DNA of 64,000 bases, taken from Streptomyces sp. HSG2. GTDB taxonomy: Bacteria > Actinomycetota > Actinomycetes > Streptomycetales > Streptomycetaceae. Position 1 is the first letter of the stretch. The number at the start of each line of letters is the position of its first letter. Below are positions 55,366-64,000 of this stretch, in pieces. The translations under genes were made by a program, and so were the position numbers. Under the pieces are notes generated by a model. The model was not told the origin of the DNA, made no database searches, and saw nothing but the letters and a program-made list of their open reading frames with translations. The stretch covers positions 2,480,001 through 2,544,000 of the forward strand of contig NZ_CP066801.1 in NCBI RefSeq assembly GCF_016598575.1. The letters run 5' to 3'.

Positions 55366-55401
55366 CGGTGCTACCAGGACACTTTCGTCGGTGTCCCGTT
55401 G

Positions 55402-55485
55402 TGCGCGAGGGGGGAGTTGAACCCCCACGCCCTTGCGGGCACTGGAACCTGAATCCAGCGCGTCTGCCTATTCCGCCACCCGCGC
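55402..55485 (-). tRNA. tRNA-Leu (CAG anticodon)
   Basis: 84 nt. The acceptor stem GCGCGGG pairs with CTCGCGC (one G-U). Anticodon arm is CTGGA-TTCAGGT-TCCAG with anticodon CAG, a long variable arm (TGCCCGCAAGGGCG) typical of class II tRNAs, and T-arm GGGGG-TTCAACT-CCCCC. CCA is not encoded. It marks the right edge of the IS-rich region; tRNA genes are common integration targets. Confidence 0.95.
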
Positions 55486-56047: not shown

Positions 56048-56887
56048 ATGGGAGTCCTGAAGAAGTTCGAGCAGCGCCTCGAAGGTCTGGTCAACGGCAC
56101 CTTCGCCAAGGTGTTCAAGTCCGAGGTGCAGCCTGTGGAGATCGCCGGGGCGCTCCAACGCGAGTGCGACAACAACGCGACCATCTGGAACCGTGATCGC
56201 ACCGTCGTGCCGAACGACTTCATCGTGGAACTCAGCACCCCCGACTACGAGCGCCTCAGCCCGTACTCGGGACAGCTCGGCGAAGAGCTCGCCGGCATGG
56301 TGAGGGAGTACGCCAAGCAGCAGCGCTACACCTTCATGGGATCGATCAAGGTCCACCTGGAGAAGGCCGAGGACCTGGACACCGGTCTCTACCGGGTCCG
56401 CAGCCGCACGCTCGCCTCCTCCAGCAGCCACCCGGGTCCACCCCAGGGTCCGGCGGCGTCGCCCTCGGGATACGGGTATCCGCCCGCCGCGGGCGCCGGC
56501 GCGCCGCCCATGCCGTCCGCGCCGCCGCCGGGCCGGCCCGGCGGATACGGCCATCCCCACTCCGCCGAGAGCCCCCGGCCCCCGGCCGCCGCTCCGTCGA
56601 GCGGCACGACCCGCCACTGGGTCGAGATCAACGGCACCCGTCACCAGATCTCCCGGTCCACGCTGGTGCTCGGGCGCAGTACCGAGGCGGACGTCCGGAT
56701 CGACGACCCCGGTGTCAGCCGCAGACACTGCGAGATCCGGACCGGGACGCCCCCGACGATCCAGGATCTCGGATCCACCAACGGCATCGTGGTGGACGGG
56801 CAACACACCACCCGCGCTACGCTCCGCGACGGCTCGCGGATCGTCGTGGGCAGCACCACCGTTATCTATAGGCAAGCCGAAGGGTGA
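56048..56887 (+). CDS. fhaA: FhaA: DUF3662/FHA-domain protein
   Basis: A 279-residue cytosolic adaptor in the PknB cell-wall signalling cluster. The N-terminal DUF3662 domain (MGVLKKFEQRLEGLVNGTFAKVFKSEVQPVEIAGALQRECDNN..., residues 1-~115) is followed by a Gly/Pro/Tyr linker. The C-terminal FHA domain (~195-275) has the phosphothreonine-binding residues in LVLGRSTEADVRIDDPGVSRRHCEI and DLGSTNGI. In mycobacteria FhaA binds phosphorylated MviN to restrain peptidoglycan synthesis (family knowledge). It is the first gene of a rightward cluster. Confidence 0.93.
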   Translation: MGVLKKFEQRLEGLVNGTFAKVFKSEVQPVEIAGALQRECDNNATIWNRDRTVVPNDFIVELSTPDYERLSPYSGQLGEELAGMVREYAKQQRYTFMGSIKVHLEKAEDLDTGLYRVRSRTLASSSSHPGPPQGPAASPSGYGYPPAAGAGAPPMPSAPPPGRPGGYGHPHSAESPRPPAAAPSSGTTRHWVEINGTRHQISRSTLVLGRSTEADVRIDDPGVSRRHCEIRTGTPPTIQDLGSTNGIVVDGQHTTRATLRDGSRIVVGSTTVIYRQAEG

Positions 56888-56897
56888 TGCGGGGGCA

Positions 56898-57410
56898 ATG
56901 TCAGAGCTGACCCTCACGGTCATGCGGCTGGGTTTCCTGGCCGTACTGTGGCTGTTCGTGATCGTGGCCGTGCAGGTCATCCGCAGCGACCTGTTCGGTA
57001 CGCGCGTCACCCAGCGCGCGTCGCGCCGGGAGTCCGGACGGGACCGCCAACAGGGCGGGCGTCAGGCGCCGCCGCAGCAGCGCCAGCAGTCGGGCGGCGG
57101 TCGGGCCCGCCGCAACGCACCGACCAAGCTGGTGGTCACGGAGGGCACGCTCAGCGGCACCACCGTGGCGCTCCAGGGCCAGACCATCACCCTCGGTCGG
57201 GCCCACGACTCCACGATCGTGCTGGACGACGACTACGCCTCCAGCCGCCATGCCAGGATCTACCCCGACCAGGGGGGCCAGTGGATCGTGGAGGACCTGG
57301 GATCCACCAACGGCACCTACGTGGACCGGTCCCGGCTGACTTCCCCCACACCGATCTCCGTGGGCAACCCGATCCGCATCGGCAAGACCGTCATCGAGCT
57401 GCGGAAGTAG
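56898..57410 (+). CDS. fhaB: FhaB (FipA): membrane-anchored FHA-domain protein
   Basis: A 170-residue protein. An N-terminal membrane helix (LTVMRLGFLAVLWLFVIVAVQVIRSDLFG) is followed by a basic Gln/Arg-rich linker and a C-terminal FHA domain with ITLGRAHDSTIVLDDDYASSRHARI and DLGSTNGTYV. The homologue links FtsZ and FtsQ under oxidative stress in mycobacteria. Starts 10 bp after fhaA. Confidence 0.92.
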   Translation: MSELTLTVMRLGFLAVLWLFVIVAVQVIRSDLFGTRVTQRASRRESGRDRQQGGRQAPPQQRQQSGGGRARRNAPTKLVVTEGTLSGTTVALQGQTITLGRAHDSTIVLDDDYASSRHARIYPDQGGQWIVEDLGSTNGTYVDRSRLTSPTPISVGNPIRIGKTVIELRK

Positions 57411-57503
57411 TGCTACACCAATGAATGAGCGCGAGCGGAGCGAGCACGCGGCGGCGGCCGGCACCACGGGCCCCGGCGCGCTCCCGACCGGAGGGTGGGC
57501 AGT

Positions 57504-59114
57504 GTGGCGCGACACGACCGGCTGTACCCGGAGCCGACCGGCGAGGTGGGTATGAGCCTGTCACTGCGGTTCGCCGCCGGATCGCATCGGGGCATGATCC
57601 GGGAGGGGAACGAGGACTCCGGCTACGCCGGCCCCCGGCTGCTCGCCATCGCCGACGGCATGGGCGGCCAGGCCGCCGGCGAGGTCGCCTCCTCCGAGGT
57701 CATCTCGACCATCGTCGCCCTCGACGACGACATCCCCGGCTCCGACGTCCTCACCTCTCTCGGCACCTCGGTGCAGCGGGCCAACGACCAGCTTCGCCAG
57801 ATGGTCGCCGAGGACCCCAGCCTGGAGGGCATGGGCACCACGCTCACCGCGCTGCTGTGGACGGGGCAGCGACTCGGGCTGGTCCACGTCGGAGACTCGC
57901 GCGCCTACCTGCTGCGAGACGGGACCCTCTCCCAGATCACCCAGGACCACACCTGGGTCCAACGCCTCGTCGACGAGGGCCGTATCACCGAGGAAGAGGC
58001 GGGCACCCACCCACAACGCTCCCTGCTCATGCGCGCCCTGGGCAGCGGCGACCACGTCGAGCCGGACCTCTCCATCCGCGAGGTCCGGCCCGGCGACCGC
58101 TACCTCATCTGCTCCGACGGCCTGAGCGGGGTGGTCTCCCGCGAGACCATGCAGGAGACCCTCGCCGGTCACCGGGGACCCGAGGACGCGGTGCAGGAGC
58201 TGATCCAGCTCGCCCTGCGCGGCGGCGGACCCGACAACATCACCGTGATCATCGCGGACGTTCTCGACCCCGACGCCGGGGGCGCCCCGACCGAGCCGCT
58301 GTACGACACCCCCGTCGTGGTCGGAGCCGTCGCCGAGAATCAGCACCAGCTCACGGACAACGGCATCATGCAGACCCCGGCGGGTCGGGCCTCCGGCCTC
58401 GGACGGCCGGGTGGAGGCCACGGCGGAGCCGACGGGGCATTCGGAGATCCCGGCGGCGGGCCGGAGGGAGCCGACGCGGTAGACCCCTCCGAGGACTTCG
58501 GCGGCGAGGCGTTCGTCAGACCTCGCAGGCGTCGCCGCTGGCTCAAGGTGTCCCTGTACTCGGTGCTGGCCCTCTCCGTCGTCGGCGCCGGTCTGTACGG
58601 CGGCTGGCGTTGGACCCAGAGCCAGTACTACGTCGGCGCCAACGACGACCACGTCGCCCTCTACCGGGGGATCAGCCAGGATCTGGCCTGGGTGTCCCTG
58701 TCGAAGGTGGAGAAGGACCATCCGGAGATCGAACTGCGATACCTGCCTCCGTACCAGCAGAAGCTGGTCGAGTCCACGATCGCCGAGGGCGACCTGAACG
58801 ATGCCCGCTCGAAGATCGACGAGCTGGCGGTGCAGGCCTCCGCCTGCCAGAAGCAACTCGAACGCGCCGAACTGAGCGAGAGCGAGGCGGCGACGGCCGG
58901 CGACGAGGCGGCGGACGCCGCGGGAACCACGCCGGCGTCCCTGACGTCCAAGGCTTCGCCGACCCCGAGCCCGTCGTCACCCTCCACGGTGACCCCGTCG
59001 GACGATCCCTCGGTACCGGAGCCGACCTCGTCCGCGACCCCACCGAACCCCGACCCCGGCCCGACCCTCTCGGAGGAAGAACAGAAGGTCGTCTCGCTGT
59101 GCGGTCAGCAGTAG
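57504..59114 (+). CDS. pstP: PstP-type PP2C Ser/Thr protein phosphatase
   Basis: A 536-residue phosphatase that reverses PknB-type kinases. The PP2C domain (residues ~15-255) carries the metal motifs GMIREGNEDSG, IADGMGGQAAGEVAS, LVHVGDSRAYLLRDG, LICSDGLSG and GPDNITVII. One membrane helix (~345-367) is followed by an extracytoplasmic domain and a Ser/Thr/Pro tail. The GTG at 57504 was chosen because GGAGG is 9 bases upstream; GTG 57495 would abut it, and ATG 57552 (MSLSLRF) is also possible. Confidence 0.93.
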   Translation: MARHDRLYPEPTGEVGMSLSLRFAAGSHRGMIREGNEDSGYAGPRLLAIADGMGGQAAGEVASSEVISTIVALDDDIPGSDVLTSLGTSVQRANDQLRQMVAEDPSLEGMGTTLTALLWTGQRLGLVHVGDSRAYLLRDGTLSQITQDHTWVQRLVDEGRITEEEAGTHPQRSLLMRALGSGDHVEPDLSIREVRPGDRYLICSDGLSGVVSRETMQETLAGHRGPEDAVQELIQLALRGGGPDNITVIIADVLDPDAGGAPTEPLYDTPVVVGAVAENQHQLTDNGIMQTPAGRASGLGRPGGGHGGADGAFGDPGGGPEGADAVDPSEDFGGEAFVRPRRRRRWLKVSLYSVLALSVVGAGLYGGWRWTQSQYYVGANDDHVALYRGISQDLAWVSLSKVEKDHPEIELRYLPPYQQKLVESTIAEGDLNDARSKIDELAVQASACQKQLERAELSESEAATAGDEAADAAGTTPASLTSKASPTPSPSSPSTVTPSDDPSVPEPTSSATPPNPDPGPTLSEEEQKVVSLCGQQ

Positions 59115-59141: not shown

Positions 59142-60581
59142 ATGAGCAGCACACCTTCCAACCCGCCGACGCACCACACGTCGACCATCGGGGCGATCGG
59201 CGCGCCCAGCCGCCGCAACACCGAACTCGCGCTCCTGCTGTTCGCCGTGGCCATCCCGGTGTTCGCCTACGCCAACGTGGGTCTGGCGCTCGACGGCCGG
59301 GTTCCCGCCGGTCTGCTGAGCTACGGCCTCGGGCTCGGCCTGCTCGCGGGCGTCGGACACCTGGTGGTCCGCAGGTTCGCCCCCTACGCCGACCCGCTAC
59401 TGCTGCCCCTGGCCACGCTCCTCAACGGCCTGGGGCTGGTCGCCATCTGGCGGTTGGACCAGTCCGAGCTGCTCCAGTCGCTGAACCTGGCCGGTGGCGC
59501 CGCCCCGCGCCAGTTGCTGTACACCGCCCTGGGCATCGCCCTGTTCGTGGTCGTGATGATCTTCCTCAAGGACCATCGCGTCCTACAGCGCTACACCTAC
59601 ATCTCGATGCTGGTGGCTCTCGTCCTGCTGTTGCTGCCATTGGTTCCGGGCCTGGGTCGCAACATCTACGGCGCCAAGATCTGGATCCAGGTCGGTTCCT
59701 TCTCGATTCAGCCCGGCGAATTCGCCAAGATCGTTCTGGCCATCTTCTTCGCCGGCTACCTGATGGTGAAACGGGACGCGCTCGCGCTGGCCAGTCGCAG
59801 GGTGATGGGGCTGTACCTGCCGCGGGGTCGTGACCTGGGGCCGATCCTCGTGGTCTGGGCGGTGTCGATCCTGATCCTCGTCTTCGAGACGGACCTCGGC
59901 ACCTCGTTGCTGTTCTTCGGCATGTTCGTGATCATGCTGTACGTCGCCACCGAACGGACCAGCTGGATCGTGTTCGGCCTGCTCATGTCGGCCGCCGGTG
60001 CCGTGGGCGTGGCCAGCTTCGAGATCCACATCCAACAGCGCGTCGATGCGTGGCTCGACCCGATGGGGGAGTACCTGCTCTCCCGGGAGGGACTCGAAGG
60101 CCACTCGGAACAGGCCATGCAGGCCCTCTGGGCCTTCGGCTCCGGCGGCACGCTCGGTACCGGGTGGGGGCAGGGTCACTCCGAACTGATCCGCTTCGCC
60201 GCCAACTCGGACTTCATCCTCGCCACCTTCGCGGAGGAACTCGGCCTGGCCGGCACCATGGCCATCCTGCTCGTCTACGCGCTCATCGTCGAACGTGGCG
60301 TGCGCACCGCCCTGGCCGCCCGGGACCCCTTCGGGAAGCTCCTCGCCATCGGCCTGTCCGGGGCCTTCGCCCTCCAGGTCTTCGTCGTCGCCGGTGGTGT
60401 GATGGGGCTCATCCCGCTCACCGGGATGACCATGCCGTTCCTGGCCTACGGAGGCTCGTCGGTCATCGCCAACTGGGCGCTGGTCGGGGTACTGCTGAGG
60501 ATCAGCGACACGGCCCGACGCCCCGCCCCCACTCCCGCCGCCCAGCCCGACGCCGAGATGACCCAGGTCGTGCGCGGGTGA
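59142..60581 (+). CDS. SEDS family peptidoglycan glycosyltransferase (FtsW/RodA/SpoVE)
   Basis: A 479-residue polytopic membrane protein that polymerises lipid II. SEDS signatures are RNIYGAKIWIQVGSFSIQPGEFAKIVLAIFFAGYL, ETDLGTSLLFFGMFVIMLYVATERTSWI with the catalytic Asp region, and SDFILATFAEELGLAGTMAILLVYALIVERG then IPLTGMTMPFLAYGGSSVIANW. SEDS enzymes work with a class B penicillin-binding protein, normally the next gene here. It is missing: the next gene is the kinase 323 bp away. Whether this one acts in division or elongation cannot be told. Confidence 0.93.
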   Translation: MSSTPSNPPTHHTSTIGAIGAPSRRNTELALLLFAVAIPVFAYANVGLALDGRVPAGLLSYGLGLGLLAGVGHLVVRRFAPYADPLLLPLATLLNGLGLVAIWRLDQSELLQSLNLAGGAAPRQLLYTALGIALFVVVMIFLKDHRVLQRYTYISMLVALVLLLLPLVPGLGRNIYGAKIWIQVGSFSIQPGEFAKIVLAIFFAGYLMVKRDALALASRRVMGLYLPRGRDLGPILVVWAVSILILVFETDLGTSLLFFGMFVIMLYVATERTSWIVFGLLMSAAGAVGVASFEIHIQQRVDAWLDPMGEYLLSREGLEGHSEQAMQALWAFGSGGTLGTGWGQGHSELIRFAANSDFILATFAEELGLAGTMAILLVYALIVERGVRTALAARDPFGKLLAIGLSGAFALQVFVVAGGVMGLIPLTGMTMPFLAYGGSSVIANWALVGVLLRISDTARRPAPTPAAQPDAEMTQVVRG

Positions 60582-60904
60582 ACCGGTGCGGCGACGGCGC
60601 CCCCACGCCCCCGACGCGCGCACCGCACTCGCGCGGCGGCCCCTCGCCCGAGGAGCCCCGGCCCACGCCGCCGCGGCCGGACGCGGGGGAGAAACCGGAC
60701 GACGCTCCCGTCGGTGGTCGTCGTGGCCGCCAGTGACTCCGCTCACGTCGGCGTCCTATCGCCGCACGTTGCGATACCGGTCCTGTATCAGGTGCCGAGC
60801 TTGACCGGGTGGCGTGAACTGAGCCGGGTACCGTAGGCCGGACGGCAGCCCCCGACCGCGCGGCCTCCGCCGGTCGGGACCGACGAGAGGGCTGGTAGGT
60901 AACC
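60582..60904. other. gap where the penicillin-binding protein gene is expected
   Basis: 323 bp between the SEDS gene and pknB. A 52-residue frame with GTG overlapping the SEDS stop (60578-60736; VNRCGDGAPTPPTRAPHSRG...) is Pro/Arg-rich and does not resemble the start of a PbpA (hydrophobic helix, then pedestal), so it was not called a gene. TTGACC at 60801-60806 may belong to a pknB promoter. No transposon remnant is visible. Confidence 0.6.
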
Positions 60905-62968
60905 ATGGAAGAGCCGCGTCGCCTCGGCGGCCGGTACGAGCTGGGCCAGGTGCTCGGCCGTGGTGGCATGGCCGAGGTCTATCTCGCCCGGGACACCCGG
61001 CTCGGCCGCACCGTGGCGGTGAAGACGCTCCGCGCGGACCTCGCGCGGGACCCGTCCTTCCAGGCCCGGTTTCGCCGGGAGGCCCAGTCGGCGGCCTCGC
61101 TCAACCATCCCGCGATCGTCGCGGTCTACGACACGGGCGAGGACTACATCGACGGGGTGTCCATCCCGTACATCGTCATGGAGTACGTCGACGGCTCCAC
61201 CCTGCGCGAACTGCTGCACAGCGGACGCAAGCTGCTGCCCGAACGGGCCATGGAGATGACCGTCGGCATCCTCCAGGGCCTGGAGTACGCGCACCGCAGC
61301 GGCATCGTCCACCGTGACATCAAGCCGGCCAATGTCATGCTGACGCGCAACGGCCAGGTCAAGGTCATGGACTTCGGTATCGCCCGTGCCATGGGCGACT
61401 CCGGAATGACCATGACCCAGACCGCGGCCGTCATCGGTACCGCGCAGTACCTCTCCCCGGAGCAGGCGAAGGGCGAGCAGGTGGACGCCCGCAGCGACCT
61501 GTACTCGACCGGGTGTCTGCTCTACGAGTTGTTGACAGTCCGTCCTCCGTTCGTGGGGGACTCACCCGTGGCCGTGGCCTACCAGCACGTCCGCGAGGAA
61601 CCACAGCCCCCCAGCGTCTTCGATCCCGAGATCACCCCCGAGATGGACGCCATCGTCATGCGGGCCCTGGTCAAGGATCCGGCCTACCGCTACCAATCCG
61701 CCGACGAGATGCGTGCCGACATCGAGGCCTGCCTCGACGGTCAGCCGGTCGCCGCCACCGCCGCCGTGGCATCGGTCGGCTACGGCGGCGACCGCCCGAC
61801 GGCGACTCTGCACGCCGGTGGCTCCGGGCCGGGCGGCGGAGCCGCGACGACGATGCTGCCGCCGGTGGGCCCGGACGACGGAGGCTACGGCTACGACGAC
61901 CGCCCCGACCGGCGACGTCAGAGGAGGAACGGCAGGACCTCCACGGTCCTCCTGGTCCTGGCCGGTGTGCTCGTCCTCGTCGGCGCGATCCTCATCGGCC
62001 GCTACGTGGTGACCGGTGGCGGGACGGGCAACGACCCGGTGCGGGTGCCCAATCTCGTCGGCCAGTCGGAGGAGGACGCTCGGCGCCTGCTCGACAACTC
62101 CGACCTGTCGCTGGGGACGATCGAGGAGCGAGCCTGCGAAGACCAGCCCGAGGGCTTGGTCTGTGAGCAGACTCCGGCGTCCGGCTCGGAGGTGGACAAG
62201 CTCACCGCGATCGACGTGATCGTGTCGACGGGGGCACCCCAGGTCAGTGTGCCCAGTGTGATCGGTCTCAGCCAGGAGGACGCCGAGGCCAAGCTGGAGT
62301 CGGAGGACTACGAGTTCGACGTGGAGGTCGAACAGCGGGAGTCCTCGGAGGATCCGGGCACCGTCCTCGACCAGGACCCGATCAAGGGCAAGGAGGTCGA
62401 GAAGGGCACGACGATCACCCTCACCGTCGCCAAGGCCGAGGAGCGGGCCACCGTCCCGGACGTCATCGGCCGTTCCTGTGAGGAGGCGAAGGCCCAACTG
62501 GAGGACAACGACCTGGCAGGCTCCTGCGTCGAGCAGGAGACGGACGACCAGGATCAGGTCGGAAAGGTCGTCTCGACCACCCCGCAGGCCAACCAGCAGG
62601 TCGACAAGAACTCCCAGGTGCAGATCTTCGTGGGCAAGGCCGCCGAGAAGGAGAAGGTGGCCGTACCCGAGGTTCGCGAGCAGACCTTGTCGCAGGCCCA
62701 GGACACGCTGCGCGGCAGTGGCTTCACCGATGTCCGGGTCGCCGGCACCGGTGAGGTCGACGGAGACTCGCTGGTGATCCAGCAGAATCCGGCCGCCGGC
62801 ACCGAGGTGGAGGACCCCGCCGGGACTCAGGTGACCCTGGTCGTCGTCGGTGACGACGGGAACGGTGGGAACAATGGGAACGGCGGCGGGAACGGCGGGA
62901 ACGGTGGAAACGACGGGGGAGGCAACGGTGGCGGAGGCGGGTTCATCGGTGGCCTGAGAGGCGACTGA
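60905..62968 (+). CDS. pknB: PASTA-domain Ser/Thr protein kinase PknB
   Basis: A 687-residue receptor kinase sensing cell-wall fragments. The kinase domain (residues ~10-275) has LGRGGMAEVY, VAVKTLRADL, HRDIKPANVM (near 135), DFGIARA and GTAQYLSPEQAKGEQVDARSDLY. One membrane helix (~346-368) leads to four PASTA repeats beginning near 379 (VRVPNLVGQSEEDA), 446 (VSVPSVIGLSQEDA), 514 (ATVPDVIGRSCEEA) and 584 (VAVPEVREQTLSQA). The C-terminal ~40 residues are Gly/Asn repeats. It is the last rightward gene of the cluster. Confidence 0.95.
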   Translation: MEEPRRLGGRYELGQVLGRGGMAEVYLARDTRLGRTVAVKTLRADLARDPSFQARFRREAQSAASLNHPAIVAVYDTGEDYIDGVSIPYIVMEYVDGSTLRELLHSGRKLLPERAMEMTVGILQGLEYAHRSGIVHRDIKPANVMLTRNGQVKVMDFGIARAMGDSGMTMTQTAAVIGTAQYLSPEQAKGEQVDARSDLYSTGCLLYELLTVRPPFVGDSPVAVAYQHVREEPQPPSVFDPEITPEMDAIVMRALVKDPAYRYQSADEMRADIEACLDGQPVAATAAVASVGYGGDRPTATLHAGGSGPGGGAATTMLPPVGPDDGGYGYDDRPDRRRQRRNGRTSTVLLVLAGVLVLVGAILIGRYVVTGGGTGNDPVRVPNLVGQSEEDARRLLDNSDLSLGTIEERACEDQPEGLVCEQTPASGSEVDKLTAIDVIVSTGAPQVSVPSVIGLSQEDAEAKLESEDYEFDVEVEQRESSEDPGTVLDQDPIKGKEVEKGTTITLTVAKAEERATVPDVIGRSCEEAKAQLEDNDLAGSCVEQETDDQDQVGKVVSTTPQANQQVDKNSQVQIFVGKAAEKEKVAVPEVREQTLSQAQDTLRGSGFTDVRVAGTGEVDGDSLVIQQNPAAGTEVEDPAGTQVTLVVVGDDGNGGNNGNGGGNGGNGGNDGGGNGGGGGFIGGLRGD

Positions 62969-63238: not shown

Positions 63239-64000
63239 TCAGCGCAGCTCCGCGGGCGGCGTCCGCTCGCCGTCGACCTTCTCCGTGCGCACGAGTTCGC
63301 CCCAGACGACGTAGCGGTAACGACTCGTGTACAGCGGCGTACACGTCGTCAGCGTGATGTAGTGGCCGGCCTCCTCCTTGCCCGACCCTTCCGGGATCGG
63401 GGCGAGGACACCGACGTTGAACTTCGACGTCTCCGGCAGGATGCCGTAGACCTCGTAGACGTACCAGGTGTCCTTCGTCTCGAAGACGATGGGGTCGCCC
63501 TCACCGATCCGATGGATGTCGTGGAACTTGGCTCCGTGGCCATCCCGGTGCGCGGCCAGCGAGAAGTTTCCCCGCTCGCCCGTCGTCGGGAGCGCCGACT
63601 CCACGGGATCGGTGTAGTAGCCCGCGACGCCGTCGTTGAGGACTTCCATCGAGGTGCCTTCCTCGACCAGGATCTCCTCGCCCGACATCGTGGGGACGTG
63701 CAGGAAGCCGATACCGGCCTCGGTGTCGAGCGCGCCCGGTCCGGTCGGCGCCGCGTCGGCCTGTTCCCACGTCTCACGGACCGCTCCGGCCTGCCGTCCC
63801 GCCTCTCGGTCCGCGAGGACGTTGGTCCACCAGAGGGAGTAGGCGACGAAGAGGCCGAGGACGACACCGGCCGTGATCAACATCTCGCCGAGGAAGCCGA
63901 CCAGCAGGGCGGCCGGGCCGGGCCCGCGTCTGCGGGCCGCCCTTCTTCCGGAGGAGCCCGGGGGTGGGGTTTCGGCAGGACCGTACGCGCCGTGCTTCGC
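63239..64000 (-). CDS. class E sortase (N-terminus beyond the window)
   Basis: A membrane transpeptidase that anchors surface proteins. The frame is open to the window end, so at least 253 residues are visible. A Pro/Arg-rich cytoplasmic segment, a membrane helix (MLITAGVVLGLFVAYSLWW), then the sortase barrel with the catalytic His in FSLAAHRDGHG, the Cys in ITLTTCTPLYTSRYRYVVWGEL (TLTTC) and the Arg in TSRYR. The ATG at 63883 is internal to the first helix, so the true start lies upstream. The class E assignment is based on fold and actinomycete context; it usually prefers LAxTG signals. Confidence 0.92.
   Translation of the reverse strand, partial: AKHGAYGPAETPPPGSSGRRAARRRGPGPAALLVGFLGEMLITAGVVLGLFVAYSLWWTNVLADREAGRQAGAVRETWEQADAAPTGPGALDTEAGIGFLHVPTMSGEEILVEEGTSMEVLNDGVAGYYTDPVESALPTTGERGNFSLAAHRDGHGAKFHDIHRIGEGDPIVFETKDTWYVYEVYGILPETSKFNVGVLAPIPEGSGKEEAGHYITLTTCTPLYTSRYRYVVWGELVRTEKVDGERTPPAELR

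Follow-up and report, generated by a model that had tools for sequence, protein, structure and literature searches.

The window, the 64,000-nucleotide stretch analyzed here (positions 2,480,001 to 2,544,000 of a single-contig assembly of 5,282,528 bp [5.28 Mb] that is 99.74% complete), carries a run of genes with the order and orientation of the Streptomyces fhaA-fhaB-pstP-rodA(SEDS)-pbpA-pknB operon (SCO3843 to SCO3848; SCLAV_2950 to SCLAV_2946), including the same leader and the same neighbor gene, but differs from the Streptomyces SEDS-PbpA-PknB cluster in that the body of pbpA, a class B PBP gene of the SCO3847 type, is missing. The relatives of this genome are Streptomyces, and its SEDS protein reaches a top identity of 93%, to that of Streptomyces sp. 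SW4, among the best 80 of at least 567 confirmed loci. The features, in window coordinates, are as follows.

56048 to 56887, plus strand: fhaA (FhaA_N and FHA domains by Pfam), intact
56898 to 57410, plus strand: fhaB (FHA domain by Pfam), intact
57495 to 59114, plus strand: pstP, a PP2C-type phosphatase (Pfam), fast evolving in the window lineage (relative rates, dN)
59142 to 60581, plus strand: SEDS glycosyltransferase (RodA, SCO3846 type) of 479 amino acids, intact (PF01098, E value of 5e-78)
60578 to 60583, plus strand: retained pbpA start, a GTG across the SEDS stop (BLASTN against seven relatives)
60578 to 60736, plus strand: Pro/Arg-rich frame of 52 codons with a TGA at 60734 to 60736, without coding signal
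60584 to 60730, plus strand: unmatched filler of about 147 bp and about 84% GC where the pbpA body would be (relatives, genus search, and shuffles)
60731 to 60904, plus strand: retained pbpA stop region and conserved pknB leader, 79 to 84% identical to seven relatives (BLASTN)
60905 to 62968, plus strand: pknB, with a Ser/Thr kinase domain and four PASTA repeats (Pfam), intact
63239 to 63883, minus strand: sortase family gene, the next neighbor after pknB (Pfam)

The true start of pstP is probably at 57555, as judged from the reading frame. A tRNA-Leu (cag) gene lies upstream of fhaA on the minus strand (55401 to 55485), and the position of the sortase gene is occupied in S. coelicolor by a minus-strand hypothetical gene, SCO3849 (Table 7 of PMC6273383).

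The pbpA junction

As originally predicted, the SEDS gene and pknB are both intact by open reading frames and Pfam and are separated by 323 bp (60582 to 60904), and a short Pro/Arg-rich frame of 52 codons begins at a GTG (60578) that overlaps the SEDS stop. The operon thus retains a SEDS gene of the SCO3846 type, which is under selection (see below), and a PASTA-bearing pknB with its conserved leader, and lacks a pbpA directly after the former and before the latter. By our script's measure, the SEDS-pknB distance is 327 nt in the window versus 1,619 to 1,949 nt in 79 named Streptomyces loci.

The GTGA in which the SEDS stop and the pbpA start overlap is common to the window and the seven relatives with which it was compared. 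In BLASTN alignments to these relatives, the left-hand homology takes in both the SEDS stop and the GTGA pbpA start before ending at 60583, and the right-hand homology restarts at 60731 to 60733 in six of the seven and at 60743 in the seventh (L066), the right-hand block consisting of the pbpA stop region and a pknB leader of 169 to 191 bp (79 to 84% identity). Because homology breaks on both sides at sharp, shared positions, the shortened gap is not a product of chance.

The filler between these boundaries aligns with the pbpA genes of five relatives no better than shuffled sequence does (58 of 200 mononucleotide shuffles equal its score). When two candidates were scored per genome, at least 268 of 392 genus genomes matched the filler at an E value of ≤0.001 among the matches listed, the best of these outside the window genome reaching 56 bits over about 98 nt at 76% identity; we read such matches as GC-rich noise. 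The Pro/Arg-rich frame is, by the signals tested, not a gene: its GC content by codon position (0.85/0.75/0.87) is close to that of the other two forward frames and unlike that of the listed genes of the window genome, whose second-position GC is about 0.4 to 0.6; it has no Pfam match; and in the 391 other genus genomes (two candidates scored per genome), it matched only short GC-rich stretches. The frame-indifferent composition, the lack of a Pfam match, and the shuffle-level scores of the filler together rule out this mini-ORF as a new small partner of the SEDS protein. A search for promoter and terminator patterns at the junction found none, and none would be expected by chance either.

Occurrence of pbpA in Streptomyces

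The premise that actinobacterial loci of this kind almost always read SEDS-pbpA-pknB holds for Streptomyces. Among the named loci (the best 80 of at least 567 confirmed Streptomyces loci), 79 reach pknB, and L072 ends at the SEDS gene; every one of the 79 readable loci has a PbpA-like gene between the SEDS gene and pknB, and a PBP also lies downstream of the SEDS gene in all 23 of the same-genus loci and all 6 of the same-order loci compared. PMC6273383 likewise places a PBP next to the PASTA kinase in most Streptomyces, and its Table 7 has the operon PBP for S. coelicolor, S. clavuligerus, and S. griseus. No report of a Streptomyces strain without the operon pbpA was found in the literature searched, which lay mostly outside subscription papers.

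Using the SW4 PbpA as the query against 392 genus genomes, including that of the window, we obtained a match of orthologue strength (E value of ≤1.6e-184) in 387. The position of pbpA beside the SEDS gene was checked for the fetched loci, which include the three with the weakest matches (G053, G172, and G287), and pbpA lies beside the SEDS gene in all three; it is also in place in six further loci (G105, G218, G230, G402, G384, and G355). A small genome is rejected as the cause of the absence, since G218 (4.8 Mb), G355 (5.3 Mb), and G105 (5.7 Mb) keep pstP-SEDS-pbpA-pknB.

Five genomes fall below the cutoff, one of them being the window genome (best E value of 3.9e-159), and a loss of pbpA is rejected for each of the others. 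In G057, pieces of pbpA flank a run of N that marks an assembly gap; in G390, pbpA is split over two frames by a frameshift; and G001 (79% complete) and G357 (86% complete) are partial assemblies in which the operon-type SEDS gene (SEDS1) was not found either. Assembly damage or incompleteness explains these four, which leaves the window genome as the one convincing case of loss among those sampled.

One of the two outcomes anticipated in the original prediction, that the partner had moved elsewhere, is not supported by a search of the whole window genome, which returned no PbpA orthologue; its best matches, at 53%, 53%, and 51% identity, are three paralogues. (The genome encodes four SEDS proteins and has 12 matches to PF00905 at 11 loci.) In a tree of 46 proteins, these paralogues fall into clades a, c, and d, and none falls into clade b, which holds the operon PbpA, as follows.

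4.31 Mb: clade a PBP, an orphan
1.50 Mb: clade c PBP, beside SEDS2
1.463 Mb: clade d PBP, of an orphan clade

Clades a, c, and d each have support of 100/100, and the window genes lie firmly inside them (smallest starred sets of 99/88, 100/99, and 100/99); the forks around clade b are partly open, and the joining of a with c may be a long-branch effect. Clade a is also present in SW4, whose copy is the sister of the window copy. Relocation of pbpA is thereby excluded within the assembly as far as sequence comparison reaches, and a real loss of pbpA draws support from the genome-wide search, from the relatives that keep the gene, and from the sharp boundaries of the junction. Elsewhere in the genome, at 2,031,404 to 2,032,219, there is one PF00905 match, compared to two about 2 kb apart in G043, G134, and G108, and a second PBP may be missing there.

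The SEDS protein and the clavam-linked paralogue

The SEDS gene has pN/pS values of 0.106 between the window and SW4, 0.157 between the window and L047, and 0.162 between SW4 and L047. Where eight outgroups and SW4 agree, the window SEDS protein has 9 window-only changes in 477 gap-free columns, and the same comparison yields 3/128 for FhaA, 4/168 for FhaB, 40/460 for PstP, 16/626 for PknB, and 5/212 for the sortase; SW4-only changes in the eight-outgroup comparison number 0 to 5 per protein, and the window lineage is long-branched overall. By these counts, constraint on SEDS is no looser than on the neighbor genes. Set against 104 relatives (columns with at least 90 sequences), its window-only residues are confined to positions 312, 318, and 468, all of them variable columns. 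This purifying selection suggests that the window SEDS protein probably still works, and its strength favors the second outcome of the original prediction, that the protein is paired with a different PBP. PstP, for its part, is strongly accelerated, with 40 window-only changes, compared to 2 that are SW4-only, and most of this lies beyond residue 200 or so.

The paralogue of clade d borders a clavam-type beta-lactam cluster that occupies 1.463 to 1.485 Mb (1,462,998 to 1,484,702; loci L207, L215, and L216) of this small Streptomyces genome. The early clavam enzymes CeaS, Bls, Pah, and Cas are all encoded, together with Oat, with E values against PDB relatives of 0 (CeaS), 2e-194 (Bls), 3e-171 (Pah), 2e-151 (Cas, to clavaminate synthase 1), and 4e-190 (Oat), and the cluster further encodes a MecA_N class B PBP and an MFS protein, as well as a regulator of the BTAD/SARP type and two proteins of the OppA type. 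Late clavulanate genes include car, cyp, and gcaS; among the selected ORFs inspected for late genes, OppA-type, GNAT, MFS, and SARP-type proteins are present, and there is no P450 or ATP-grasp match. The clade-d gene is tail-to-tail with cas at a distance of about 130 bp, so that a PbpA-like class B PBP adjoins the clavam genes, and the SEDS2-PBPc pair lies about 15 kb beyond the cluster.

Among the 391 other genomes, Cas orthologues (≥57%) occur in 25 (24 full length and a contig-edge fragment in G061), clade d (≥71% identity) occurs in 42, and the two occur together in 9 (odds ratio of 5.7; Fisher P value of 0.0005, which ignores kinship). Clade d adjoins oat in G061; lies on the clavam contig in G233, about 15 kb from cas, about 2.7 kb from an oppA1 homologue, and about 8 kb from a SEDS2-type gene; and is 30 to 40 kb from cas in G073 and G098. 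In G294, a genome with no Cas match, clade d is about 4 kb from SEDS2-PBPc (L286, G294:C12:48000-66000), which hints at an older home that preceded linkage to the cluster. No other probed gene occurs within the few kilobases examined around the clade-d sites of G134, G262, CCM_MD2014, and S. cyaneochromogenes. A PbpA-like gene is absent from the 17 to 20 kb examined at each of 20 further Cas loci, 10 of which have a MecA_N PBP.

That clavam carriers lose pbpA as a class is rejected: 24 of the 25 other Cas-positive genomes were searched (G001, in which SEDS1 was not found, was left out), and 23 show SEDS1 with an adjacent PbpA; Cas-positive G258 has no SEDS1 match at the cutoff, and PbpA is present. 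All nine other genomes that combine Cas with clade d keep pbpA beside the SEDS gene, which argues that carrying clade d does not lead to the loss of pbpA and leaves the link between clade d and replacement resting on a single genome.

In RodA-PBP2 and FtsW-FtsI complexes, it is the anchor and pedestal of the PBP that contact the SEDS protein. Over residues 1 to 35 (the membrane anchor and juxtamembrane segment), identity to the operon PbpA is 69% for the clade-d protein, 39% for clade a, and 31% for clade c; the corresponding values are 56%, 54%, and 49% for the pedestal and 48%, 53%, and 50% for the transpeptidase domain, so that outside the anchor clade d is no nearer to PbpA than are a and c. 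With the first residues left out of the measurement, the anchors of two other clade-d proteins reach 75% (CCM_d) and 74% (cyaneo_d), and the similarity is therefore old or ancestral rather than a new adaptation. Nor did a search for convergence toward PbpA turn up any: of 52 sites diagnostic of b versus d, the clade-d protein of the window genome carries the d residue at 47, that of b at 2, and a different one at 3, compared to 47, 0, and 5 in the control, cyaneo_d.

The closest known parallel is S. clavuligerus, which has both an operon PBP (SCLAV_2947) and a PBP in its clavulanate cluster (SCLAV_4180) that are 53.3% identical (PMC6273383), a value similar to the 53% of the best PbpA match in the window genome. 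Like the clade-d protein, SCLAV_4180 is a PbpA-type class B PBP beside a clavam cluster, but S. clavuligerus keeps its operon PBP, whereas the window genome has lost the operon pbpA. Since SCLAV_2947 is termed “a low affinity PBP” (PMC6273383), the standard PbpA need not be sensitive to the drug, and the same source describes the self-resistance role of the SCLAV_2947/SCLAV_4180 group as unresolved. When placed in S. flavogriseus, the pbpA of the S. clavuligerus clavulanate cluster raised resistance to penicillin G and cefoxitin; the same study reports that PBP-2 confers more resistance than PBP-A, that linkage of pbpA to such clusters is rare among beta-lactam clusters, and that pbpR is found in 89% of clavulanate clusters (PMC9146315). 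Passages of PMC4416010, PMC6767563, and PMC12482188 add nothing decisive. The protein with MecA_N and transpeptidase domains encoded at 1.4766 to 1.4784 Mb may be the counterpart of the PBP-R (pcbR) of clavulanate clusters; as it is not PbpA-like, it is not a likely partner of SEDS1.

Candidate partners of the SEDS protein

We favor, at a probability of roughly 0.45, a lineage-specific loss of pbpA after which a functional RodA-type SEDS protein is now served by a paralogue, most likely the cluster-linked clade-d PBP. An event removed the canonical pbpA from the operon, leaving behind its start codon, its stop region, the pknB leader, and about 147 bp of unrelated filler; the RodA-type SEDS protein, to judge from the selection on it, would have remained functional, with a paralogous class B PBP as its partner. 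The likeliest stand-in would be the clade-d paralogue at 1.463 Mb, whose gene lies tail-to-tail with that for clavaminate synthase and whose anchor resembles that of PbpA the most. The loss itself is well shown, whereas replacement by a paralogue is something that we infer, with one supporting genome.

SEDS proteins and class B PBPs are usually regarded as fixed partners, and a natural strain with a selected SEDS protein but without its dedicated PBP would make partner choice directly testable. If clade d is the stand-in, the wall synthase uses a PBP tied to a beta-lactam cluster, and the standard one is no longer needed. Self-resistance by a duplicated insensitive target involves a second target copy beside the biosynthetic genes; the window genome is similar in having a putative second copy (clade d) beside the cluster and differs in that the standard copy itself has apparently been dropped. 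It is possible, if doubtful, that the SEDS protein of this putative beta-lactam producer switched to the cluster paralogue and that the standard pbpA was then deleted, self-resistance having replaced rather than supplemented the target. The tie to the cluster would then provide a specific example of a producer whose own wall synthase may have been altered by antibiotic production.

A real loss buffered by general redundancy, in which the clade-a orphan, the clade-c partner of SEDS2, or several PBPs serve the SEDS protein and the cluster is incidental, is a credible competitor. The clade-a and -c proteins are intact, and their transpeptidase domains are as close to that of PbpA as noted above (53% and 50%); clade a is shared with SW4 as a sister copy; and SEDS1-like copies that have no pbpA neighbor, found in G248 and on a plasmid of another Streptomyces strain, indicate that SEDS-PBP pairing may be loose. 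However, the anchors of a and c are unlike that of PbpA (39% and 31%), and clade c has its own SEDS2 adjoining.

It is unlikely that this strain can do without the SEDS-PbpA synthase, with the SEDS gene a remnant or its product working without a dedicated PBP and the wall made by class A PBPs and other SEDS-PBP pairs. Polar growth of C. glutamicum does run on either class A PBPs or a SEDS-class B PBP pair (PMC8262863), PknB loss in Streptomyces is reported to be harmless (PMC13432765, which also reports a rodA mutation among DivIVA suppressors), and the window genome has four SEDS genes and 11 transpeptidase-domain loci; strong purifying selection on SEDS, with window-only residues at the variable columns 312, 318, and 468 only, nevertheless argues against a remnant.

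An assembly or sequence artifact that hides a pbpA, either at the junction or on a replicon left out of the assembly, is improbable. G057 and G390 illustrate assembly damage that hits pbpA itself, and a plasmid may be absent from a single-contig assembly, but that contig is 99.74% complete, the roughly 147 bp of novel sequence at the junction are unlike pbpA and make a simple collapse unlikely, and paralogues at 51 to 53% identity to PbpA provide no near-identical repeat to collapse. Least probable is that one of the three PbpA-like genes elsewhere in the genome is a relocated and diverged orthologue, since all three are placed with orthologues from other species, in clades that have 100/100 support (a, c, and d), and clade b is represented in those species as well.

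Two extra SEDS genes were encountered in other strains. The SCO3846-type gene on plasmid NZ_CP109493.1 of Streptomyces sp. NBC_01435 (L290, 8001 to 9311) has no PBP, PknB, or PstP match within 8 kb, and that of G248 (L268, G248:C1:7187537-7188919) has no pbpA in its 1.5-kb flank and coexists with a normal copy. Could these be spare or resistance SEDS copies?
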